DNA of 11,855 nucleotides. Source: an uncultured Eubacteriales bacterium. GTDB lineage: Bacteria; Bacillota; Clostridia; Oscillospirales; Oscillospiraceae. Location of the stretch: the NCBI GenBank assembly GCA_900546615.1, contig URDJ01000061.1, positions 1-11,855 on the forward strand. The letters run 5' to 3'. Shown here piece by piece: positions 504-11,369 of the stretch. A program made the position numbers and the translations under genes. The notes below the pieces were generated by a model, which did no database searches, was not told where the DNA came from, and saw only the letters and a program-made list of their open reading frames with translations. How positions within the stretch are numbered: position 1 is the stretch's first letter; every line of letters starts with the position of its first letter.

Positions 504-1664
504 TCATTTCGGGAAAACGTCAATGATGGCCTGAGCAGACGCAAGCTTTGAATTGAAGTCAAGGTGCGTATAGATATTTGCGGTGGTGGAAATGTTGCTG
601 TGCCCAAGCCACTCCTGAATATCCTTGAGGCTTACTCCGTTGGCGTACAGCAGGCTAGCGCAGCTGTGCCTGAGGTCGTGGAAACGTATCCTCCTCAAAC
701 CGTTTTCTTCGAGCAAAACAGGAAATCTGGATGAGATGTAGCCGGGCTTTATGCGTTCTCCAAGCTCGTTGACATACACGAAGTCGAGATACTTGGTGCA
801 GTATGCTTTGCCGCAGGCACCCCGGTTTTTCTCCTGCTCTTTTCGCATCTCCTGCAGCAGGGATGCAAACGGCAAGACCAGTGGGAGCGTCCTTCTGCTG
901 GATTTTGTCTTTGTCCTCGCCTTTTCCACGACTTCATATTTCCCGTCTACAACTGCCTCGGTAACTGTGTACTTTATGGTCAGCAGATTTCGCTCGAAGT
1001 CTATTGCGTCCCACCTTAAGCCCACGATCTCGCTGCGCCTCAATCCGTAGAATGCGCCGAGGATGACTGCCAGTTCGAGCTTTGTCCCCTTGGCCGCTTC
1101 GAAGAGCTTGGCCAGCTCGTACCGGTCATAGATATCGGCGGTATAGTCATTCTTCTTCGGGCGCTCAACTCTGTCTGCTGGATTGAAGTTAATAAGCCCT
1201 GTTTTGAGTGCATACTGAAGTGCTTTGCGGATGTTAGCGTGTATGTGTATTACAGTGTTGGGTGAAAGCCCTTCCGTATTGAGGCAGTAGGAGTAGTAAT
1301 CCTGGATATCCTTTGGACCGAGTTCTGAAAGCAGCATTCCCTTCGCTGAGAAATACGGAATTATCTTGTTTTCAACTATCCTCGAATACCCTCCATACGT
1401 CGTTATCTCCACGCTGTTTTTCATCATCCTGAGCCAGTCGCGCATGAAATCTGTGAACAACGGGCTTTTCTTGCCGGCGTCTGTTGAATCCAGAGGCTCA
1501 AATGTCTTGCGAGCCTCGATCAGTATCGCCTCGGCCCGCCGCTTATTCCCCTTGATCGGCAGGCCGGTGCTGATGGATTTAGTCCGTCGCTTGCCAGTGT
1601 AGTCCTTATAGCTCAGTATGATCTGATAATAGCCATTTTGTTCCCGCAGGTGACCTGCTACCAC
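504..1664 (-). CDS. int: Tyrosine recombinase (phage/ICE integrase)
   Basis: This 386-aa site-specific recombinase is of the Tn916/lambda integrase class and would cut and rejoin att sites to insert or excise the element. An N-terminal arm-type DNA-binding part (NGYYQIILSYKDYTGKRR) and a SAM-like core-binding domain (about residues 70-165) precede the catalytic domain. The active-site set is visible: Arg209 in YGLRRSEI, a probable beta-hairpin Lys near 252, His329 and Arg332 in FHDLRHS, His355 in WLGHSN and Tyr365 in NIYTHL. The start is GTG at 1664 because it sits 6 nt after a perfect AAAGGAGG; the frame stays open upstream to 1733 but has no such site. It is downstream of and same-strand with the excisionase-like gene, and convergent with tRNA-Leu(TAA), the standard arrangement for an element inserted in a tRNA 3' end. 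Family assignment is firm; the element's exact type is inference. Confidence 0.95.
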   Translation of the reverse strand: MVAGHLREQNGYYQIILSYKDYTGKRRTKSISTGLPIKGNKRRAEAILIEARKTFEPLDSTDAGKKSPLFTDFMRDWLRMMKNSVEITTYGGYSRIVENKIIPYFSAKGMLLSELGPKDIQDYYSYCLNTEGLSPNTVIHIHANIRKALQYALKTGLINFNPADRVERPKKNDYTADIYDRYELAKLFEAAKGTKLELAVILGAFYGLRRSEIVGLRWDAIDFERNLLTIKYTVTEAVVDGKYEVVEKARTKTKSSRRTLPLVLPFASLLQEMRKEQEKNRGACGKAYCTKYLDFVYVNELGERIKPGYISSRFPVLLEENGLRRIRFHDLRHSCASLLYANGVSLKDIQEWLGHSNISTTANIYTHLDFNSKLASAQAIIDVFPK

Positions 1665-1749
1665 AACGTTCCTCCTTTCGATAGCAGCCTGCACCCGCCA
1701 TTGACAAGCACAGTGTAACAGGCGAGGCAGCATTCTGCAATCTTGCCGC

Positions 1750-2392: not shown

Positions 2393-2809
2393 TCAGGCCA
2401 AATGTTTTTTGATTTTGCGCAGTCTCTTCGACACCGCCTGCTGCGTGCACCCGAGCACGCGGGCCGTCTGCGCTTGTGAGAGGCCGTCAACGCAGAGCAG
2501 TGTAAGAAGCTCCAAGTTGGCCTCAGGCAGCTCGCGCAGTTTTGCAGAGAGCCGTGAATCACTCAGTTCCTCTATCCAGCCACCGCGGCCGGGATTGCAC
2601 TCAGGCATCAGGTTATAGCAAGAGCCGCAGGCCATCTCCAACGGACGCCTGCGGCTCTCGTACGCTCTATTGCGGTTGAATTGTTCGAGGTCGAAGCGGC
2701 GCATCTCCTCGATGTCATCCTCGCTCATGCCTTCTTTCCTGTACCAACGTTCCTTGCGCTTCCACTCGGCGTCAAACCTTCGCTTCTCTCTGGCGTAGTT
2801 GTATGACAT
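2393..2809 (-). CDS. Sigma-70 region 4-like regulator of the integrative element
   Basis: This 138-aa protein has a very charged N-terminal half (many R, E, K, D; residues 1-60), a short GSCYN/PECNPG middle, and a C-terminal helix-turn-helix. That helix-turn-helix is LSAKLRELPEANLELLTLL, then GLSQAQTARVLG, then CTQQAVSKRLRKIKKHL, as in sigma factor region 4. Proteins of this kind occur near int/xis in Tn916-like elements and phages, where they act as transcription regulators of transfer or excision genes. The ATG at 2809 is chosen because AGGAGG (2818-2823) lies 8 nt upstream; the frame opens 12 codons earlier without a site. That AGGAGG is inside a strong hairpin (2816-2856), which suggests translational control. 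The target promoter is unknown. Confidence 0.8.
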   Translation of the reverse strand: MSYNYAREKRRFDAEWKRKERWYRKEGMSEDDIEEMRRFDLEQFNRNRAYESRRRPLEMACGSCYNLMPECNPGRGGWIEELSDSRLSAKLRELPEANLELLTLLCVDGLSQAQTARVLGCTQQAVSKRLRKIKKHLA

Positions 2810-2815
2810 TAAAAT

Positions 2816-2856
2816 GACCTCCTGCTTTGATTTGGATGGGATCAAAATAGGAGGTC
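2816..2856 (-). promoter_or_regulatory. 5' hairpin sequestering the ribosome binding site of the sigma-like gene
   Basis: Two arms, 8 bp (GACCTCCT with AGGAGGTC) and 6 bp (TTTGAT with ATCAAA), separated by a 2-nt mismatch, close a 9-nt loop. On the minus-strand RNA the 3' arm holds the AGGAGG that serves the ATG at 2809, and the 5' arm is its exact complement. Folded, it would block ribosome access. A terminator role is less likely because only TTTT follows. Confidence 0.6.
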
Positions 2857-2978
2857 AGGGGTATTTGGATATGTAGCACTGCCAGAAGTCAGAGCGTACA
2901 AAGCGCCCGCTCTCAACCAAGGTTTAGAAAATGTAGTTGTTGATAGTGAAAGTTTAAGACATTCCTATGCCGGACTTT
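2857..2978 (-). other. Short AT-rich spacer between agrD and the sigma-like gene
   Basis: I see no gene here and no clear terminator for agrBD. Any promoter of the sigma-like gene should be in this stretch, but no strong -10/-35 pair stands out. Confidence 0.4.
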
Positions 2979-3131
2979 TCATTTGTCAGCCTTTTCTTCC
3001 TGCGCAGCTTTGGCAGGAGCCGGACGTTTTGGCTGATATAGCATACCTAAACACAAAGGAGGCCATCCGTCAACTTCACGTTTAACCGCATTTGAGACAA
3101 AGGTTTTTGCCGTTTTTTCAATAAATTTCAT
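2979..3131 (-). CDS. agrD: AgrD cyclic-peptide pheromone precursor
   Basis: This 50-aa precursor encodes the autoinducing peptide processed by AgrB. It has the three AgrD parts: an amphipathic N-terminal leader (MKFIEKTAKTFVSNAVKREV), the peptide region with the ring cysteine at 27 (WPPLCLGML), and the conserved tail YQPKRP followed by an Ala/Pro/Lys/Glu-rich end. By alignment with known AgrD proteins, where cleavage precedes the D/E-E-P-K-type tail, the five-residue thiolactone ring is most likely C-L-G-M-L. How many exocyclic residues remain cannot be read from sequence. The start overlaps the agrB stop by 4 bp (ATGA) and GGGAGG stands 8 nt upstream inside agrB, so the two are translationally coupled. 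The gene is easily missed because it is so short. Confidence 0.93.
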   Translation of the reverse strand: MKFIEKTAKTFVSNAVKREVDGWPPLCLGMLYQPKRPAPAKAAQEEKADK

Positions 3132-3715
3132 TGTTCTTTCCTCCCTTTTTGCCTTGCTTTTTCTGTTGACACTAAGATTTGCGTTAATAGGACACCACAG
3201 AAGAGATAAGTGCCTATATTAAATAAACTTGCCAATGAAGCAGATGTCTGAAGCAAAAAGACAATAATAAGTAAATGGTTTTTCTTCTTGTTGTTTTCTA
3301 CAATCGCTTCTCTAGTAAAATTCGCTTGCGGAGGGTATATGGGTTTCGTAAAGTAAGCGACGATATAGATTAAAAAGCTTCCTATCAAAGAGGGCAACAA
3401 TGGAATGCGGCTCAAAAGCGGGCCAATAAGCATTGTTATCGTAATTACTATAACGATGCTCGCTGTAATACATAACCATGGCAGCTTTGCGTGGTACCCG
3501 CCCATTCTGCTGCGGAGAACATAAAATGTACAGGCAAAACTCAGCGTTTCAATGTGCTTTCCCGAGACACACATCCAGAGCAAAAGAAGCAATAGAAAAG
3601 CAGAGAACAATATCCACTTTTCTGCCGCATAGACGCACCAGTCGAGCTCTGAATCTTTTACCCATCCTCTGCTCACGCAGGAGTTTGCTATGGCAACAGC
3701 TCTTTTGTGCAGCAT
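3128..3715 (-). CDS. agrB: AgrB membrane endopeptidase that processes AgrD
   Basis: This 195-aa integral membrane cysteine protease removes the AgrD tail and closes the thiolactone. The family signature RSRMGGYHAKLPWLC is present, with catalytic His75 and Cys82 seven residues apart as in characterised AgrB. Around it are hydrophobic segments at about 35-50, 82-103, 108-128, 150-167 and 168-185. The N-terminus MLHKRAVAIANSCVSRGWV resembles other AgrB proteins from their first residue. I place the start at ATG 3715: in-frame TTG, GTG and ATG codons lie at 3727, 3724 and 3721, but the stretch GGTGAT (3720-3725) matches the 16S anti-Shine-Dalgarno tail with spacing that suits 3715. It forms an operon with agrD under the promoter at 3732-3761, separate from agrAC. 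Confidence 0.95.
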   Translation of the reverse strand: MLHKRAVAIANSCVSRGWVKDSELDWCVYAAEKWILFSAFLLLLLLWMCVSGKHIETLSFACTFYVLRSRMGGYHAKLPWLCITASIVIVITITMLIGPLLSRIPLLPSLIGSFLIYIVAYFTKPIYPPQANFTREAIVENNKKKNHLLIIVFLLQTSASLASLFNIGTYLFCGVLLTQILVSTEKARQKGRKEQ

Positions 3716-3731
3716 TGGCATCACCAATAAT

Positions 3732-3761
3732 ATTATACATTTTCAGATAAAATACTGTAAA
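3732..3761 (-). promoter_or_regulatory. agrBD promoter
   Basis: On the minus strand TTTACA (3756-3761) is followed after 18 bp by a perfect TATAAT (3732-3737). The predicted start near 3725 leaves a leader of only about 10 nt before ATG 3715. The weak -35 and slightly long spacer fit a promoter needing an activator, and paired repeats lie immediately upstream. Confidence 0.8.
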
Positions 3762-3798
3762 TATCGCAGTAAAACAGGTAAAATTAGCAGTCAAACAA
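3757..3798 (-). promoter_or_regulatory. Paired 21-bp repeats upstream of agrB: likely AgrA operator
   Basis: Two imperfect 21-bp direct repeats stand head to tail (3778-3798 and 3757-3777), 16 of 21 bases identical. The shared core on the minus strand is TGTTTNACTGC (3787-3797 and 3766-3776). The last bases of the second repeat form the -35 box. LytTR regulators such as S. aureus AgrA bind paired 9-bp elements about 12 bp apart (21-bp period) upstream of a -35. The GTT core is kept although the flanks differ from the staphylococcal site. AgrA binding is inferred from geometry and context. Confidence 0.7.
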
Positions 3799-3801
3799 GC
3801 A

Positions 3802-3835
3802 AACCGCCGGCCCATGAATACATGAGCCGGCGGTT
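3802..3835 (-). terminator. agrAC terminator between agrC and agrB
   Basis: A 10-bp GC-rich stem (AACCGCCGGC with GCCGGCGGTT) plus an inner CATG pairing lies 9 bp after the agrC stop on the minus strand. It is followed by TGCTTGTTTG, a broken T-rich tract. It separates agrAC transcription from the agrBD promoter directly downstream. Confidence 0.7.
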
Positions 3836-3844
3836 AATTCAACA

Positions 3845-5155
3845 TCATATCTGTGCCGAGAAAATGAAAAGCTTCTTTGCGGCATCGTAGCTTATCGCAT
3901 AGATCCCTCCATGTCTTGCCAATACTGCGGCCACATTTTGGAGGCCGAAACCATGACCTGCGGCGTTGTCTTTTGCGGTCTGAACCACGTTATTTCGAAC
4001 TCTCACAGGTTCGGCTGTCGAGTTCTCAATGTAGAGAAATGCGGCCTCATCCTTGACCTTGAACTTGAGAAGTATATGCCTCTTTTCGGGTTTGGATATC
4101 TCCTCACAAGCTTCAATGGCGTTGTCTATGAGGTTTGCCAGCACTGTGACGAGTTCATCATCCGGCAGGGATACTGTTGACAGGTCGTCTAGCTGATATC
4201 TGAAGCTGATGTCCTTGCTTTTTGCTATGGACAGCTTCTGGTTGATGATGATATCCGCAGCCGGGCGGTGGGTATTTACAAGTGTCTCGGCGGGTGTGAG
4301 CTGAGCCTGGAGCCCGTCCAGATAGGTGAGCAGGTCGGACTTGTCAGCATCCTGCTCCACCATGCCGCGTATGACCAGCAGCTGATTCTGGTAGTCGTGC
4401 GTCAGCTTGCGCTGCCCGGAATACGCCTCCCTCCAGGCCGTTATGTTGTCAAGCTCCAGCTTTATATTGTGCCTGAGTATCGCGTTGTCGCGGACGGCTT
4501 CGCTCTGCCTCTCCATGTAATTCAGGACGAAGAAGGACATGACGTCTGTGAGCAGCACTATTATGACGCACACGAGCAGTTCCTTCGTGGCCTCCGGCGC
4601 CGCTATGACGGAGCGCAGCAGAAGTGTTGATATGACAAATGACGAGGCCGGAAAGGCCAGAGCCCGTATCCAGTCGGAGACGGAAGCAGCTCGCCCGGGA
4701 AAGCGGTGCCTGAGAATGAATTGCAGTGCAATGATGAAGAACAGCTCGACGGTTTTAATGAAAAAACACAGCGCGTAGTATTCAAATGGCCCGAACAAAA
4801 AGTACTGCACGCTAATTCCAAGCCATTCGCAAACTGCTGCGATTAAAGCAGTGTCAGCAAGCTGCAAAAAGGCGCCTATAAATGCTCCCGTGAAGACCGC
4901 CTTGACCGCGTTAGTACGGAAGCCAAGCAGCACCATTGCAGACATGAGAGCACATCCTAGCACAACGCGCAGATACATATGCTCAGCCAGAAGACTGTAC
5001 ACATACCAAATAGGCGGCGCGGAGACTATAAACAGGCAGAGCGTGAGAGGGGCGCTGAACCTGCGCCTGAACATCCCTTCGGACAGGATGTAGACCATGA
5101 GCTGCTCGAGGGCAATGACGAGGATGTTGAGAAATACTGACAATCCTGCGCTCAT
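3845..5155 (-). CDS. agrC: AgrC-type sensor histidine kinase
   Basis: This 436-aa membrane receptor would detect the AgrD-derived peptide and phosphorylate AgrA. The N-terminal half is hydrophobic, with segments at about 5-24, 37-54, 61-78, 85-108, 125-148, 165-183 and 192-213, as in AgrC sensor domains. A linker and dimerisation helix then carry the phospho-acceptor His253 in KLTHDYQNQL. The HPK10/GHKL ATPase has an N-box NLIDNAIEACEE (Asn345), a short IENS motif (376-379) and a G-box GHGFGLQNV (400-408). The ATG overlaps the agrA stop by 4 bp (ATGA), so agrA and agrC are coupled. The gene ends just before the hairpin at 3802-3835. Ligand identity is inferred from linkage to agrBD. Confidence 0.93.
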   Translation of the reverse strand: MSAGLSVFLNILVIALEQLMVYILSEGMFRRRFSAPLTLCLFIVSAPPIWYVYSLLAEHMYLRVVLGCALMSAMVLLGFRTNAVKAVFTGAFIGAFLQLADTALIAAVCEWLGISVQYFLFGPFEYYALCFFIKTVELFFIIALQFILRHRFPGRAASVSDWIRALAFPASSFVISTLLLRSVIAAPEATKELLVCVIIVLLTDVMSFFVLNYMERQSEAVRDNAILRHNIKLELDNITAWREAYSGQRKLTHDYQNQLLVIRGMVEQDADKSDLLTYLDGLQAQLTPAETLVNTHRPAADIIINQKLSIAKSKDISFRYQLDDLSTVSLPDDELVTVLANLIDNAIEACEEISKPEKRHILLKFKVKDEAAFLYIENSTAEPVRVRNNVVQTAKDNAAGHGFGLQNVAAVLARHGGIYAISYDAAKKLFIFSAQI

Positions 5156-5901
5156 AGCCCGCTCCCTTTCCAGAGCAGGTACTGCTCGCGTATTTTGGAG
5201 TAATTCAGCTCTGAGACCTTTAGCTCTTTTCCGTTCGATATGAAGGCCCGATAGCCGCTGATACGGCGCAGATGGGCCATGTTTACAAGAAAGCTCTTCT
5301 GTATCCTGAGAAAGCCCTTGCCTGAGAGCGACTCCTCAAGAGCGGATAATTTGCCCTGACAAGTCACCGGCCCCTCATGGCCCATCACATATGCGAGCAC
5401 CATGCGCTGCGCGGTTCCCTCAAAATACAAAACGTCTTTCAGGGGAAGCACACAGTCACCGTCATGTGTCCTGAGGCTGACGACGTCGCTGCTGCTGTAA
5501 AGCCTCTCCCGTATGCCTTCAAGGATCTCTCTGAGTTCTTCGTCGACCCTGGATTTGAGCAGATAGCGAAAGGCGTCGACTTTGTAGCCCGAGGGAGCAT
5601 ATTCGATATAGGCGGTGACAAAGACAAGTATCATTTCAGGATACTTTATCCGCAGCAGTCTTGCCAGTTCTATGCCGTTGCCGCCGGGCATCTCAATGTC
5701 AAGAAAGGCTGCCTTTACACCGGAGAGGTCGGCATTCAGGACATCCTGCGGCTTATCAAATATAAGGCAGTCAAGAGGCCAGTCCTCATATGCGCAGATG
5801 TCCTCGATCCTGCGCCGAAGCTCTCTGGCAAACGCGGCGTTGTCATCGCAGATCATCAACCTCATGGGAAAACACGCTCCAGGTCGTTTTTTCTTTACCA
5901 T
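5152..5901 (-). CDS. agrA: AgrA-type LytTR response regulator
   Basis: This 249-aa cytoplasmic response regulator has a receiver domain (about 13-130) with an acidic pocket Asp19/Asp20, phospho-acceptor Asp68 in AFLDIEMPG, a conserved Thr96 and Lys116. A LytTR DNA-binding domain follows (about 138-245), including RIQKSFLVNMAHLRRISG. It would bind paired direct repeats to activate agrBD and other targets. Two starts are plausible: ATG 5901 with GGAGAG 7 nt upstream, and ATG 5865 with GGAG 11 nt upstream, which begins exactly at the receiver domain (MRLMICDD). I keep 5901 for its better spacing; the 12 extra residues are basic and not part of the domain. It is first in the agrAC operon, driven by the consensus promoter at 5994-6022. 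Confidence 0.93.
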   Translation of the reverse strand: MVKKKRPGACFPMRLMICDDNAAFARELRRRIEDICAYEDWPLDCLIFDKPQDVLNADLSGVKAAFLDIEMPGGNGIELARLLRIKYPEMILVFVTAYIEYAPSGYKVDAFRYLLKSRVDEELREILEGIRERLYSSSDVVSLRTHDGDCVLPLKDVLYFEGTAQRMVLAYVMGHEGPVTCQGKLSALEESLSGKGFLRIQKSFLVNMAHLRRISGYRAFISNGKELKVSELNYSKIREQYLLWKGSGL

Positions 5902-5984
5902 ATATTATCTCTCCAGTTTTGTCAAATCTCAGACTTTATAATGGACTTTCGACATCTGGCATAGTTCATGCAAAGATTCTGATT

Positions 5985-6017
5985 ATTAACACAATTATCG
6001 TGCAACTATATGTTAAT
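5985..6017. promoter_or_regulatory. Inverted repeat within the overlapping divergent promoters
   Basis: ATTAACA (5985-5991) and TGTTAAT (6011-6017) are perfect 7-bp inverted arms 19 bp apart. They cover the -35 and -10 of the XRE promoter and flank the agrAC -10. This is the size and placement of an operator for a small dimeric repressor, possibly the XRE protein itself. The protein that binds is inference. Confidence 0.45.
5986..6014 (+). promoter_or_regulatory. Promoter for the XRE regulator
   Basis: TTAACA (5986-5991), a 17-bp spacer and TATGTT (6009-6014) give a moderate promoter reading towards the XRE gene, with a leader of about 37 nt before ATG 6058. It overlaps the opposing agrAC promoter almost completely. 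Confidence 0.5.
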
Positions 6018-6022
6018 GTCAA
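5994..6022 (-). promoter_or_regulatory. agrAC promoter
   Basis: On the minus strand a perfect TTGACA (6017-6022), a 17-bp spacer and GATAAT (5994-5999, 5 of 6) form a near-consensus sigma-A promoter. The leader to ATG 5901 is about 85 nt. It overlaps the divergent promoter of the XRE gene, so the two should compete. No paired repeats like those of agrB are visible here, which fits constitutive or XRE-controlled expression of the sensor pair. Confidence 0.7.
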
Positions 6023-6057
6023 GAAAATTGCTGAACATTAGCTTGTAGGGAGGCTGG

Positions 6058-6303
6058 ATGTTGAAAATATATGACTATAAGGGCAAGAAAAACATTTGCG
6101 GAGATAGGATACACGAAGCACGAACACGACAAAGAATGACACAGCAAGAACTGGCTGCACGAATGCAAATTGAAGGAGTTACTTTGGAACGGGACTCAAT
6201 AAGTAGGGTAGAGATTGGGACCAGATTCGTCACGGATTACGAAGTAGTTATTTTTGCAAAAGTGCTCGGAGTAGCAACGTCATGGTTGCTTGGAGAAGAA
6301 TGA
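6058..6303 (+). CDS. Small XRE-family HTH transcription regulator
   Basis: This 81-aa protein is essentially one Cro/C1-type helix-turn-helix domain. GDRIHEARTRQRMTQQELAARMQ leads into a short insertion (IEGVTLERD) and the recognition part SISRVEIGTRFVTDYEVVIFAKVLGV, ending in SWLLGEE. No sensor or enzymatic domain follows. A GGGAGG lies 5-6 nt before ATG 6058, which is a sound start. It is divergent from agrAC with overlapping promoters and an inverted repeat between them, so control of itself and of agrAC is plausible. A perfect palindrome starts on its stop codon. Base composition is AT-richer than agrAC and the lipoprotein genes, like agrBD. Confidence 0.88.
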   Translation: MLKIYDYKGKKNICGDRIHEARTRQRMTQQELAARMQIEGVTLERDSISRVEIGTRFVTDYEVVIFAKVLGVATSWLLGEE

Positions 6304-6336
6304 CTCCCCTTAACCTGTTCAGGTTAAGGGGAGTCA
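6301..6336. repeat. Perfect 17-bp palindrome on the XRE stop codon
   Basis: TGACTCCCCTTAACCTG and its exact complement are separated by only TT, and the first three bases are the stop codon of the XRE gene. It would form a very stable hairpin in RNA. No T-tract follows on either strand, so a classical terminator is uncertain; a bidirectional stop, an mRNA 3'-end stabiliser or a protein-binding site are alternatives. Confidence 0.75.
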
Positions 6337-6356
6337 ACTATTGTCAGCACCATTAT

Positions 6357-6398
6357 AGATTTTACAGCCTAATTTGCCGATTATACAGTTATTATTAC
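6357..6398 (+). promoter_or_regulatory. Second paired 21-bp repeat, matching the agrB operator
   Basis: Two 21-bp units (6357-6377 and 6378-6398) share GATTWTACAG with a 21-bp period. Aligned to the two units before agrB, all four share the pattern TTTWNACWG at the same offset and end in a T-rich TTAC/TTGC. The second unit runs into the -35 box exactly as at agrB. I infer an AgrA-controlled promoter driving the secreted protein at 6600. Confidence 0.6.
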
Positions 6399-6424
6399 AT
6401 ATGAGGATGACAAGAGTGTATAGT
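6394..6424 (+). promoter_or_regulatory. Promoter linked to the second operator
   Basis: ATTACA (6394-6399) and TATAGT (6419-6424) are 19 bp apart, close to the TTTACA-18-TATAAT layout at agrB. The long spacer and weak -35 suggest dependence on an activator. The transcript would have a leader of about 170 nt before ATG 6600. A second, weaker pair, TTGGTA-16-TATGAT near 6515-6542, could also serve that gene. Confidence 0.5.
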
Positions 6425-6599
6425 ATGCTTGAAAATGGCGAGTGAAGCAAAATATTAACTTCAGAGCAGTGGCTTTGCGAAATTCGGCAGGTATTGTTAA
6501 TTATATTTTACTTTTGGTATTGAGAGGATGATGCGTATGATTGCACTTCTTTAAGACATTTGAAAAAAGTAAAGTATTAAGGATAGGAAGGTGAATGCA

Positions 6600-7055
6600 A
6601 TGAAAAAAAGGTTAATATCTATGCTTCTTATTGTTGCAATGACGATTGCAGTATTGTCGATTAATGCCTTTGCGGTTTGCACAGAGTATTCTGTTGGAAT
6701 GCACGGGACCCGTGGCAAACCTGCGGGAGCAAGTGACTCTACAGAAAATTGGTATTACAGCTATTATTCCAATCAATCGTATTGGGTAGGTGCCAACTAT
6801 AAGTCCACCGGAAAACAAGTATATATGGTTCAAGCCTATCTATTTGCTGATGGAGAGTTTACAGACATATCCAGCGTTGACGGAGTATGGGGCCAAAATA
6901 CAGATACACAAATCCGTGCGTATCAGTTTAAATACTCTGGTGACGGATTGACTTCAGATGGAGTTGTAGGCACTAACACATGGAAACATATGGCATACAT
7001 TAAATATCAAACTACAATAAGCTATCTTCTTCCTTTTGTGCCTAATTATATATAA
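6600..7055 (+). CDS. Small secreted peptidoglycan-binding-domain protein
   Basis: This 151-aa exported protein has a clear signal peptide (MKKRLISMLLIVAMTIAVLS, then INAFA before a predicted cleavage near residue 25). A Tyr/Ser/Asn-rich stretch follows (about 48-72), then a PG_binding_1-like repeat (about 73-132) with the family landmarks SSVDGVWGQNTDTQIRAYQFK and SDGVVGTNTWKHM. A short aromatic C-terminal tail ends in YLLPFVPNYI. There is no catalytic domain, so it probably attaches to the cell wall without cutting it, or works with a partner. ATG 6600 is preferred over the in-frame GTG 6591 because GGAAGG overlaps that GTG and sits 8 nt before 6600. The paired-repeat promoter upstream makes it a candidate Agr output. 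Export and fold are well supported; role is not known. Confidence 0.85.
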   Translation: MKKRLISMLLIVAMTIAVLSINAFAVCTEYSVGMHGTRGKPAGASDSTENWYYSYYSNQSYWVGANYKSTGKQVYMVQAYLFADGEFTDISSVDGVWGQNTDTQIRAYQFKYSGDGLTSDGVVGTNTWKHMAYIKYQTTISYLLPFVPNYI

Positions 7056-7067
7056 TATAAATTATTG

Positions 7068-7109
7068 TTACCAGTGTAGCAGGCATATAATTGCCTGCTA
7101 CACTGGTAA
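7068..7109. terminator. Perfect 18-bp palindrome after the secreted-protein gene
   Basis: The arms 7068-7085 and 7092-7109 are exact complements around a 6-nt loop TATAAT, starting 12 bp after the stop at 7055. The stem is strong, but no T-tract follows, so it may act as a terminator, an RNA stabiliser or an operator. The loop reads TATAAT, with ATTGTT 16 bp before it, so a promoter inside the palindrome cannot be excluded. Confidence 0.5.
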
Positions 7110-7150
7110 ATATGCCCAGATTAATAATTATAGAAAGGTTTTTTGATGCC

Positions 7151-9301
7151 ATGTATATTAAGCGCATAACATGGTTATCTCTGCTTTGTGCTGCGATACT
7201 ATGCCTCTCATCGTGCGGAAGTGCCGGTACGCTGCCTGGCAAAACAGACAGTGCGGCTGAAGCTGCCGATTCCGCGTCCTACAGATACGTCAAGACCGCG
7301 ATAGCTCTGCCGAAGGAGAACTTCATCATCTCAAACGCCGAGGCGGCGAAGTCAAACATCTACCTCTTCGGCACGGAGGTCACAGAGGCCCCGAACAACT
7401 ATTACATCTATGCTCTGGACTATGACGGCAATATAATTGATCAGAAACGCTGTGCCTGGGATGACGGCTATTACCACAGCATTATGGATTCGGCGGTGGA
7501 CGACAGTGGCACTATATGGCTGCTCGAATACCTGTATGAACGTACATATGATGAAGACGGGAATAAAACATCGGAGCGCTCTGCTGGCTGGTGCGTCGAG
7601 AGAGTGGACGAAAACGGCTTTTCCGGGCCTCTTTTCAGCTCAAGCGTCGTCGATGAGCCGTGGGAAATTGACGTTTACAATGAGGCAGTTTACCTGTGCA
7701 GCAGCGATGGCGCCTTCTGTTTTTCCGTTGACGGAGACTTTCTCGGTTCGTCTGGCAGCCTGAACGGATTTCGCGGCATGACCATTGCCGGCGGCAGCAT
7801 ATATCTGCTGCATTCCGACATAAGCGGCGTGAAGATAAGCCTCGTTTCGCCCGAAGACTGTTCCATCTCCGCTGACCTGGCAGCGGATGTCAACGTCTAC
7901 GACTTGATAGGCGGCACAGGCCTCTACATAAACAGCGGCAGCGACCTTTACAGCTTTGACCCGGAAACAGGCGAGACCGGCCTCGTGCTGAATTGGGTCT
8001 CGGCCGGTGTCTCCGGGAATTACAAGGGCGTAACTGCGCTTGCAGACGGGGCGTTTTTGTACTACGACGCCCGGGAATTGTGCATCCTGGAGCCTGCCGC
8101 GCACACAGACGAGCTGATAACGCTGACGCTGGCGAGCATGGAGCCCCGCTTTATCCGGGACGCTGTGATCGACTTCAACGCCTCTAACGGGAAGTACGCC
8201 GTTGAGATAATCGACTACTCGCAGTACAACACCGACGACGCGCCAGAGGCCGGAGTTTTAAGGCTGAATCTGGACATAATCTCCGGCAATGCGCCGGATA
8301 TCATCGACTTGACCAGTTTGCCGCTGGGACAGTATGAGAATATGGGCCTGCTGGAGGACCTCAGCGCGTACTTTGACCGTGAGGGAAGCCCGGCCATGGC
8401 AGAGAACCTCTTGAACGCCCTGAAAAGCGGCGGAAAGCTCTGCGCCATTGTACCATGCTGTACGATAATGACCATTGAGGCATACGGCTCGGACGTAGAC
8501 GGCATGGGGGAACTGGAGTTCCATGACATATTGGCGCTTCAGAAGACGATGGGCAGTGGAGCCAACCCCTTCGGCGCGACGATGTCCAAAAAGTCGTTTC
8601 TGGAAACCATGCTCTCCGTAGGAAATTCCAAATACATAGACTGGAAAACCGGCACGTGCAATTTTGATTCCAGCTTTAAGGATATGCTTGAATTTGTGGC
8701 CAGCCTGCCTGATGAGTACGACCTGTCAACGGATTTGCAGATGATAGCCTCGAGGGACCAGCTGCTTTCCGTGCAGCATATATCCTCAATCATGGATATC
8801 CTGGCATTTGACTACTATTTCGGTGGCGACCTGGCCCTCTGCGGCATACCGTCCGCCGAAAACTCCGGTGCTGTCATGTGTCCGTATATCATGCTGGGTA
8901 TGTCATCTGCCGGCGAGAACAAGGATGGCGTATGGGAGTTTATGAGCATGTTGCTATCTGACCGGTATCAGGATATGTACGCTGACATGATGCTGCCGAC
9001 GACAGAGTATGGGCTGGAGCAAGTAATGGATGATATGGATGAGTGGATATCGTCCGGAGGGGAGCTGTATCTGCTTGACATCCACGGAAATGAAGTATCC
9101 GTAAAATCAGACAATGAAAAATGCGCGAAGCTTTTTCGTGAGCTTTTGTACTCTGTGACAAGTGTCTGCGAATTCAATCAGGAGCTGTTCGACATTGTCT
9201 GGCCCGAAGCTCAGGCATATTTCTGTGGAGACAAAAGCGTGGATGAGGCCGTCAATATCATTAGCTCTCGGGTGCAGATATATGTCAGCGAGCATTTGTG
9301 A
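7151..9301 (+). CDS. Lipoprotein: propeller-like domain fused to family-1 solute-binding domain
   Basis: This 716-aa lipoprotein would be anchored outside the membrane. The signal peptide ends in lipobox LSSC (lipid Cys22). Residues about 45-315 hold recurrent beta-rich units such as NYYIYALDYDGNIIDQK, VYLCSSDGAFCFSVDGDFLG and LYINSGSDLYSFDPETGE, which look like propeller blades. From about 320 a family-1 extracellular solute-binding domain follows (TLASMEPRFIRDAVIDF, then DIISGNAPDIIDLTSLP). The best start is ATG 7151; GAAAGG (7133-7138) is 12 nt upstream, a long spacing. The frame runs back to a TTG inside the palindrome, which is unlikely as a start. No ABC permease or ATPase gene is visible, so transport is not shown; ligand sensing at the surface is an alternative. 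It is 31 bp from the next homologous gene. Confidence 0.85.
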   Translation: MYIKRITWLSLLCAAILCLSSCGSAGTLPGKTDSAAEAADSASYRYVKTAIALPKENFIISNAEAAKSNIYLFGTEVTEAPNNYYIYALDYDGNIIDQKRCAWDDGYYHSIMDSAVDDSGTIWLLEYLYERTYDEDGNKTSERSAGWCVERVDENGFSGPLFSSSVVDEPWEIDVYNEAVYLCSSDGAFCFSVDGDFLGSSGSLNGFRGMTIAGGSIYLLHSDISGVKISLVSPEDCSISADLAADVNVYDLIGGTGLYINSGSDLYSFDPETGETGLVLNWVSAGVSGNYKGVTALADGAFLYYDARELCILEPAAHTDELITLTLASMEPRFIRDAVIDFNASNGKYAVEIIDYSQYNTDDAPEAGVLRLNLDIISGNAPDIIDLTSLPLGQYENMGLLEDLSAYFDREGSPAMAENLLNALKSGGKLCAIVPCCTIMTIEAYGSDVDGMGELEFHDILALQKTMGSGANPFGATMSKKSFLETMLSVGNSKYIDWKTGTCNFDSSFKDMLEFVASLPDEYDLSTDLQMIASRDQLLSVQHISSIMDILAFDYYFGGDLALCGIPSAENSGAVMCPYIMLGMSSAGENKDGVWEFMSMLLSDRYQDMYADMMLPTTEYGLEQVMDDMDEWISSGGELYLLDIHGNEVSVKSDNEKCAKLFRELLYSVTSVCEFNQELFDIVWPEAQAYFCGDKSVDEAVNIISSRVQIYVSEHL

Positions 9302-9332: not shown

Positions 9333-11369
9333 ATGCTGGGATACAAAAGAATAAAACAGGCGTCCATCGCCCTGCTGGCGGCGGCCTGCCTGGTGCTCTC
9401 CGGCTGCGGCAGGGACGGCGGGAGTGTTTCGCTCGTCGAGGCGGGCCCGGCGCAGGAGCAGGGCGGCGGGAGCTATGTGCCGCAGACGCTTGCCTCAGAG
9501 GCTGAGATCGGGACCATCTTCTCCGCGGCTCCGGCGGAGGACGGGCTGTACGTTTTTGGCAGCAAGCTGATGCTGCTGGGTTTTGACGGCTCGGTAGAGA
9601 CCATACCCAGCATTTCATCTGTTGTAAAAATGTGCGCGGGGGACGGCGGGACGGCTTGGGTGCTCCACCGTCTGCCCACGGATGCCGACAGCGCGCCCGT
9701 CTATGAGCTGGGGCGGCTCTCAGGAGCGGAGTACAGCCCGACATGCTCGCCGGATATCGGCCAAAAGGAGGTCACTGTCGGCATGTGCGCCGCCGGGGAC
9801 ATGGTCTATATCGCCCTGACAGACTACCTCAACTCGCATCGCATCGCCGTCTATTCCGCCTCAAGCGGCGAAAAGCAGCGGGATATCTCCGTAAGCGGCC
9901 CAATAGACCTTGCCTCGGACGGAGAAACGGTATATGCAGGCAGCGCGGAAACGACAGGCGGCGGCGCGCTCTCCGTATTCCGCCTTGAGAGCGGGGAAGA
10001 AGTTGCCCGCTTCGACGGCGGGAGCCTGCTATCCGCCGCAGACGGGCTTCTTTGCATAAGCGACGGCACCTCCGTCTTTGAGTACGACATAGCATCCGGG
10101 CAGCTCACGCGCTTATTTGGTTTCGTCTCCTGCGGCCTGAGCGGCAGGCAGGTCACCGTCTGGCCGGACGGCGAGGGAGACTATGTGGCCGTCGGGCGCG
10201 AGGCGGCGGCCCTGCTGCGCTACGACGAGAACGCCCGGCCGAAAACGCAGCTTGTGCTGGCGGTCAACGGGCAGTCTTCTTTTATTTCAAGCTCCATTTT
10301 GGAGTTCAACGCCTCGGGCGGAGAATACGAGCTCGCAGTCAAAGACTACAGCGGTTATTCGGATCCCCTTACCGTGCTGAACACCGAGCTGATAGCCGGG
10401 AATGGACCGGATATAATAGACGTCAACAGCTTTTCATCCACCATACTGAACCCGGACGCCATGGTCGACCTGTTACCGCTCATCGAAGCCGACCCGGAGC
10501 TTGGGCCGGACAGCCTCATCGATGGGGCGCTTAACGCCATGCTCGCGGATGACGGCAGGCTGCCGGCGATAGCTCCCGTCTACTATGTGTCCACGTTGGT
10601 GTCGCGGGATGCCGAGGCCACCCCCTTTACCTCCGTCTTTGACGCGCTCGAACGCATGGGAAATGCGGACGAGGCGCTCGGCGGCACTATGTCGAGGGGA
10701 ATGTTCCTCACTATGGCCTTCGGCTGCGGCGGAGCGGAGGACTATGACGCCGCGGACATACAGGCCATATTGGAATATGCCCAGGCACTGCCCGATGAGG
10801 AGGACCACAGCTCCGAGACGGCAAATATGGCATCAGGCACGCAGATATACAGCTTTCAGACCATCGGCGGCGCAGGAGGTCTGTTCGGAGCGGCCGAAGA
10901 CTTCGGCTGTTCTCTGGAAGATTTGCAGGTGTGCGGCCTGCCCTTCCGCGAGGGCAGCGGGACGCTTGTGCCGGTGGTATATCTGGCAATACCCGCCTCG
11001 TCCAAAAACGTTGATGCCGCCTTCGGCTTCATAAAGAGCCTGATGCTCGAGGAGAACACGCTCTACAAGAATCTCGAACTGAACGCCTTCCCCATACTTT
11101 CCGCCGAATATGAGCGGCTGGCCGAATATGAGCAGCAGAGAATAGACGCGGCCGGGGAAGGCCAGTATCCATGGACGTACGCGAAACACTACGAACGAGC
11201 GGCTGAGGTCCTGGACGGCCTGAACGGCCTGTGCTGCCCGGACACTGCGCTCATGGGCATCGTTGACGATGCTGTGCCCGCGTATTTCGCCGGGGCATCC
11301 GATGCCTCCAAAACGGCTGACGAAATCGTCTCCAGACTGGGCATATATTTTGCTGAGAAGGGGAACTAA
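9333..11369 (+). CDS. Second tandem propeller plus solute-binding lipoprotein
   Basis: This 678-aa lipoprotein has lipobox LSGC (lipid Cys25). As in the preceding protein, a beta-rich N-terminal half (about 45-300; units such as GLYVFGSKLMLLGFDGSVET and ETVYAGSAETTGGGALSVF) precedes a family-1 solute-binding half from about 305 (SILEFNASGGEYELAVKDY, then LIAGNGPDIIDVNSFS). Both proteins share FNAS, GN-PDIID, GGTMS/GATMS, LPDE and a DE-V...R..IY tail, so they are paralogues. ATG 9333 has AAGGGG 5 nt upstream; the frame extends back to 9162 but overlaps the previous gene and lacks a site. It lies 31 bp after that gene, probably in one operon, yet is clearly more GC-rich. Ligand unknown. Confidence 0.87.
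   Translation: MLGYKRIKQASIALLAAACLVLSGCGRDGGSVSLVEAGPAQEQGGGSYVPQTLASEAEIGTIFSAAPAEDGLYVFGSKLMLLGFDGSVETIPSISSVVKMCAGDGGTAWVLHRLPTDADSAPVYELGRLSGAEYSPTCSPDIGQKEVTVGMCAAGDMVYIALTDYLNSHRIAVYSASSGEKQRDISVSGPIDLASDGETVYAGSAETTGGGALSVFRLESGEEVARFDGGSLLSAADGLLCISDGTSVFEYDIASGQLTRLFGFVSCGLSGRQVTVWPDGEGDYVAVGREAAALLRYDENARPKTQLVLAVNGQSSFISSSILEFNASGGEYELAVKDYSGYSDPLTVLNTELIAGNGPDIIDVNSFSSTILNPDAMVDLLPLIEADPELGPDSLIDGALNAMLADDGRLPAIAPVYYVSTLVSRDAEATPFTSVFDALERMGNADEALGGTMSRGMFLTMAFGCGGAEDYDAADIQAILEYAQALPDEEDHSSETANMASGTQIYSFQTIGGAGGLFGAAEDFGCSLEDLQVCGLPFREGSGTLVPVVYLAIPASSKNVDAAFGFIKSLMLEENTLYKNLELNAFPILSAEYERLAEYEQQRIDAAGEGQYPWTYAKHYERAAEVLDGLNGLCCPDTALMGIVDDAVPAYFAGASDASKTADEIVSRLGIYFAEKGN

Follow-up and report, generated by a model that had tools for sequence, protein, structure and literature searches.

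A putative second LytTR-type operator in a gut Oscillospiraceae agr locus and its candidate exported-protein output

The sequence at positions 6360–6389 of the window, i.e. the whole 11,855-nucleotide stretch analysed here, is likely a LytTR-type operator of the locus's own AgrA-like regulator, which would serve both agrBD and a divergent output of exported proteins. In the mechanism we propose, the peptide made by AgrBD would accumulate and AgrC would then phosphorylate AgrA, which would bind both operators, each composed of two direct 9-bp half-sites 21 bp apart, and recruit RNA polymerase to a weak −35 with an over-long spacer. The agrBD promoter would provide feedback and the divergent 6360 promoter the output, namely a secreted peptidoglycan-binding protein and perhaps the lipoproteins encoded behind it. 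We infer three of these steps: that this AgrA binds the operators, that it activates rather than represses, and that the response depends on the peptide. The evidence consists of two matching operators in the window, their geometry, the recurrence of a second operator in relatives, and the genes found behind these sites.

The window encodes an AgrB peptidase along with an AgrC kinase and an AgrA LytTR response regulator, all on the minus strand. The AgrA-like regulator and presumed binder (5152–5901; LytTR 54.1 bits, Response_reg 39.4 bits, both above cutoff) is followed by an AgrC-like GHKL histidine kinase (3845–5155; HATPase_c_5 67.8 bits, above cutoff), agrB (3128–3727; Pfam AgrB 63.5 bits, cutoff 23), and an AgrD-like peptide gene (2979–3131) that scored below cutoff with TIGR04223 (15.3 bits, cutoff 19). 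This last frame has a WPPxC....YQPx(R)P-type tail, as do small frames 3' of agrB in relatives, with WPPxC....YQPxRP found in 14 of the 17 relatives having an AgrB frame. Staphylococcal equivalog models scored far below their cutoffs on AgrC and AgrA (12.9 of 500 and 38.3 of 400). On the plus strand, a small XRE regulator gene (6058–6303; HTH_31 and HTH_3 barely above cutoffs) lies between agrA and the 6360 operator.

Two operators of like design in the window

The 6360 operator was delineated by repeat pattern, matrix score, and alignment to the agrB units, and comprises unit 1 (TTTTACAGC, 6360–6368) and unit 2 (TTATACAGT, 6381–6389, deviating from the consensus) on the plus strand, i.e. 9-bp direct repeats with 12 bp between them and 21 bp from start to start. 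This is the geometry of LytTR/AgrA-type sites, in which direct repeats of about 9 bp stand 12 bp (11–13) apart. A likely −35 (ATTACA, 6394–6399), assigned from the sequence and from spacing relative to agrB, begins 4 bp after unit 2, and the likely −10 (TATAGT, 6419–6424), assigned from spacing and the −10 term of the matrix, stands 29 bp after unit 2 and 19 bp beyond the −35, exactly where an earlier note on this DNA had placed it. On the minus strand, the agrB operator was recognised by the same three approaches, with unit 1 (TTTGACTGC) at 3787–3795 and unit 2 (TTTTACTGC) at 3766–3774, ahead of a TTTACA-18-TATAAT promoter (3732–3761) matching the consensus at 11 of 12 bases. The repeats end 4 bp before the −35 at both sites, the distance from unit 2 to the −10 is 28 bp at agrB (TATAAT at 3737–3732) vs 29 bp at the 6360 site, and both promoters have over-long −35/−10 spacers (18 bp at agrB and 19 bp within 6394–6424).

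The earlier note had also aligned two 21-bp units, 6357–6377 and 6378–6398, with the two units at agrB, and this alignment indeed needs no gaps and shows identity at 25 of 42 positions, a count that none of 20,000 random 42-mers of similar composition attained (mean 11.3). The shared motif had been mistyped, as TTTWNACWG matches none of the four units and occurs in the window at 6924–6932 only, while TTWNACWG, one T fewer, matches all four. This short motif alone means little, because it has eight matches in the window vs 4.5 expected, and 17 of 200 shuffles reach eight. On these counts, the unusual feature would be the pair at 21-bp spacing rather than the short motif. The pair pattern TTWDACWGY-N12-TTWTACWGY has two exact matches in the window and a third at three mismatches, against a shuffle mean of 0.32 at up to three mismatches, a count that is circular since the pattern was written from the sites themselves.

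An earlier, smaller matrix, built from the agrB operators of the window, L012, and L045 and including no −10 term, placed the 6360 site second in rank at a score that was not significant window-wide (reached in 27 of 100 simulated windows, and in 40 of 2000 simulated intergenic stretches). The training set of the main matrix was chosen after this non-significant window-wide result, and was extended to four relatives because L007 and L011 carry further unit variants, including an ACAGC form that the 6360 site also carries. This main matrix combines the eight units of the agrB operators from L012, L045, L007, and L011, whose agrB promoters are organised in the same way and have TTTTACTGC and TTTCACAGC among their units, with a generic −10 term, and excludes the window. 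It ranked the window's agrB site first (33.8) and the 6360 site second (22.2), followed by a match at 11.6 that overlaps agrB, which upholds the proposal that the two sites are of the same operator kind. In simulations, 22.2 was reached by 0 of 200 windows and by 2 of 3000 intergenic stretches; on the two units alone, without the −10 term, the site's score was reached by 5 of 200 and 5 of 3000. A chance resemblance in AT-rich intergenic DNA, which the commonness of the short motif and the window-wide result of the earlier matrix would allow, is thus very improbable given this window-blind ranking, the identity to the agrB units, and the test of related loci described below. The near-identical contig L006 differs at 54 of 3097 bases, none of them in the units or the −10, and is too close to inform on conservation.

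The XRE gene stands directly before the 6360 site, and it has relatives beside agrA in L012, L011, and L007 (and, weakly, in L045), so that the operator could instead belong to the XRE protein, with the likeness to agrB either incidental or reflecting shared XRE control. The 9-12-9 direct repeat ahead of a −35 is, however, the plan of LytTR sites (PMC6193735), and in L008 a distance of 199 bp, free of any XRE frame, separates the operator from agrA. We accordingly give control by the XRE protein very little weight, and retain the AgrA-like regulator as the probable owner of the site.

Both operators are preceded by a strong hairpin, as the earlier note had described (−28.9 and −29.5 kcal/mol, z about −6.2). 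The further idea that these hairpins would stop incoming transcription is supported by prediction at the agrB site, where folding energy and terminator scoring identify a terminator-like hairpin on the incoming strand between agrC and the operator (3802–3835, minus strand). It found no support at the 6357 site, since the hairpin located 3' of the XRE gene (6301–6336, plus strand), which has no T-run on its own strand, was scored as terminator-like on the minus strand only. A near-perfect hairpin at 7068–7109 (−34.9 kcal/mol, z −9.3), between the peptidoglycan-binding and first lipoprotein genes, likewise has no T-run and resembles the one 3' of the XRE gene. Separately, an eight-codon frame at 6527–6553 (ATGATGCGT...TAA) follows GAGAGG in the leader of the gene at 6600, and is possibly a leader peptide and possibly a product of chance.

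Recurrence of a second operator in related agr loci

An alignment of AgrA relatives yielded 45 loci from a species collection, and an AgrB-like frame was found in 17 loci, one of which (L001) came from a search of the family of genome G001. AgrB itself gave no match when used as a query against genome contigs, and matched one of 292 genomes in that family. This genome, G001, was rejected as kin: the matching contig is probably a stray one, given that it is 3.1 kb long and 98% identical over 4845–7941, in a bin marked as 8% contaminated.

To evaluate recurrence, each locus's own operator (located before agrB, or else after agrC) served as the reference for its best other copy. Of the 39 loci so treated, 20, among them the window and the identical pair L035 and L036, offered a clear operator together with sufficient upstream DNA. 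In 8 of the 20, the best other copy was divergent from agrA and no more than 1 kb upstream of it, vs 0.85 expected. With the window and the duplicate removed, the count was 6 of 18, while column-permuted matrices gave a mean of 1.4 and a maximum of 5, with none of 200 reaching 6. When this divergent zone was scored alone, 10 of 18 loci were significant at p < 0.05 (Fisher 1e-10), a count that includes one false match, in L019, where the site overlaps a gene start, and a p-value that overstates the independent evidence since several loci are close kin. Controls gave 2 of 18 on the opposite strand of the upstream zone (Fisher 0.036), 1 of 18 and 0 of 18 on the two strands inside agrC, and 0 of 15 at 1.6–2.6 kb upstream. 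The remaining 8 of 18 loci displayed no clear divergent operator. For 8 of the 18 loci, in which AgrB was unrecognised, the operator located after agrC served as the reference.

The reading of the second promoter as marking a candidate Agr output is thus well supported by comparison. This recurrence beside agrA, together with the match between the 6360 units and the agrB operator of the same locus, also bears on whether the site could serve another LytTR regulator encoded elsewhere, in which case the gene at 6600 would not be an Agr output. LytTR regulators are common enough to make this conceivable, with a match to the AgrA alignment in 361 of the 391 genomes of a class sample, but on balance we consider it improbable, and the locus's own AgrA-like regulator stays the favoured binder. 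In the same class-wide search, G306 was the sole locus in the score range of the related loci, followed by more distant LytTR regulators, and the three class-wide loci examined had no such operator (best scores 14.3, 11.0, and 14.7).

Genes behind the operators and extent of the regulon

The first gene behind the 6360 operator (6600–7055, plus strand) has a product of 151 aa, which carries a signal sequence at its N terminus as well as a PG_binding_1 domain (Pfam 33.0 bits, cutoff 23) and for which nine homologues were found at 45–99% identity. Signal and lipoprotein sequences, here and in the relatives, were read by eye from translations. Two large lipoprotein genes whose products weakly resemble solute-binding proteins follow on the plus strand, one at 7151–9301 (SBP_bac_1 24.5 bits, below the cutoff of 26) with homologues in L008, L023, and L009, and one at 9333–11369 (SBP_bac_1 17.3 bits, also below cutoff), the product of which is related both to that of 7151–9301 (5.4e-33) and to L008:5478-7685; a third runs off the end of the window. 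Because these lipoprotein genes follow, the Agr output may extend beyond a single wall-binding protein, with 7151–9301 and 9333–11369 as possible further output.

Judging from translations in the related loci, the genes behind the second operator mostly appear to encode exported proteins. Behind the L008 operator stand genes for two lipoproteins homologous to the 7151–9301 product (1.5e-14 for the first and 1e-49 for the second), and in L010 an operator after agrC precedes five tandem lipoproteins. The ten significant zone loci are L012, L018, L019, L024, L026, L029, L035, L038, L039, and L047, and in six of them (L018, L024, L026, L035, L039, and L047) the product of the next gene looks exported. 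The zone operator of L012 is followed by a sigma-like gene, then by agrBD and the gene of a 793-aa protein in which PG_binding_1 is combined with a glycoside-hydrolase-like domain, and that of L038 by a 66-aa hydrophobic frame, while L041 has secreted and lipoprotein genes behind a weak operator (p 0.107). L011 has one operator before a secreted 208-aa protein and another before a 439-aa non-exported protein, and falls outside the zone-test count because neither operator lies within 1 kb of agrA. A Pfam scan of ten such proteins left six without a match, and identified a carbohydrate-binding module in L026.

Additional operator-like sites were observed in some of these loci. L011 contains four, including L011:5025 and L011:10233, with one before the 439-aa protein, which has a relative in L039, and one before short frames only. 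A sigma-like gene distinct from the window's sigma-like frame is flanked by two operators in L012. At L016:3953, a further such site (26.1) lies ahead of a frame for a 26-aa peptide and two long frames that resemble ABC exporters by eye, with an AgrA-like regulator downstream.

The earlier note had further suggested a defined small Agr regulon, for which support in the case of the window comes by proxy, through the relative L011 only. On the complete 3.1-Mb chromosome of L011, an operator pattern written from that genome's own agr locus has three exact matches, all three within the agr locus; at up to two mismatches, 4 of 13 matches lie in the locus, and a backward control gave 6. The other nine matches score at most 17.0 with the matrix and −10 term, vs 22.8–31.8 for those in the locus. 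These scans would fit a local regulon in L011, and no more than that.

Relation to known systems and setting of the locus

The 6360 operator would belong to a known LytTR kind, and the part that merits attention is the recurring private exported-protein output beside agr. The window resembles S. aureus agr P2/P3 in that a LytTR regulator is associated with direct repeats ahead of promoters whose spacers are over-long (18 and 20 nt for P2 and P3; PMC4227749), and in that one promoter would feed back on agr and the other serve the output. Unlike in S. aureus, a separate promoter behind agrA-agrC serves agrB-agrD, and the candidate output consists of protein genes divergent from agrA. The agr output of S. 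aureus is the regulatory RNA RNAIII. A protein gene, rather than an RNA, stands behind the 6360 site, and the only Rfam match in the window at gathering scores is a tRNA.

According to PMC6193735, most LytTR operons of S. mutans have 9-bp direct repeats 12 bp apart, located 4–11 bp before the −35, and the HdrRM and BrsRM systems share with the window the 9-12-9 repeats before the −35 and the combination of feedback with further targets. The HdrRM and BrsRM regulators are described there as having no receiver domain and being held by membrane inhibitors, whereas the window's AgrA contains a receiver domain and is paired with a histidine kinase. As in the agrACDB locus of Clostridioides difficile, which encodes a LytTR AgrA along with agrC, agrD, and agrB (PMC3754575), the window combines agrA, agrC, and agrB with an AgrD-like gene, a likeness of gene content. 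Unlike in that locus, the window has the order agrA-agrC, hairpin, agrB-agrD, with XRE and exported-protein genes divergent from agrA. Among the matches listed in searches of open-licence PMC papers, none described this arrangement.

The agr loci of gut Oscillospiraceae and their kin might be self-contained cassettes, with one LytTR operator at agrBD and one or more at a private output block that encodes exported proteins, both small secreted ones and large lipoproteins, and often diverges from agrA, a generalisation for and against which we see about equal grounds. If true, quorum sensing would steer a dedicated surface programme within the cassette rather than a genome-wide regulon, and the recurring secreted or lipid-anchored output beside agr hints at the purpose of these signals. 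The 6360 site also offers an operator that can be put to the test and an initial set of candidate targets for the Agr systems of gut-type Clostridia, many of which are represented here by metagenome-assembled genomes only. With a rule of 9-12-9 repeats and about 29 bp to the −10, likely targets of quorum sensing could be listed using no more than the sequence.

The agr locus may itself be cargo of an integrative element. A search of the window for another copy of the tRNA 3' end, which could act as an attachment site, found none, and a plasmid search with 2800–7200 gave no match. At 373–2845, a tyrosine integrase (504–1733, minus strand) adjoins a tRNA-Leu (373–459) and is followed by excisionase-like and sigma-like frames, an order that resembles integrative elements. 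Just 5' of the intact tRNA-Leu, a tRNA-Leu-like stretch at 168–233, called by neither ARAGORN nor Rfam, is possibly a degenerate copy, and a partial tRNA-like end occupies 1–50 on the minus strand. The sigma-like frame at 2393–2845 has relatives near the agr loci of L011 and L039.
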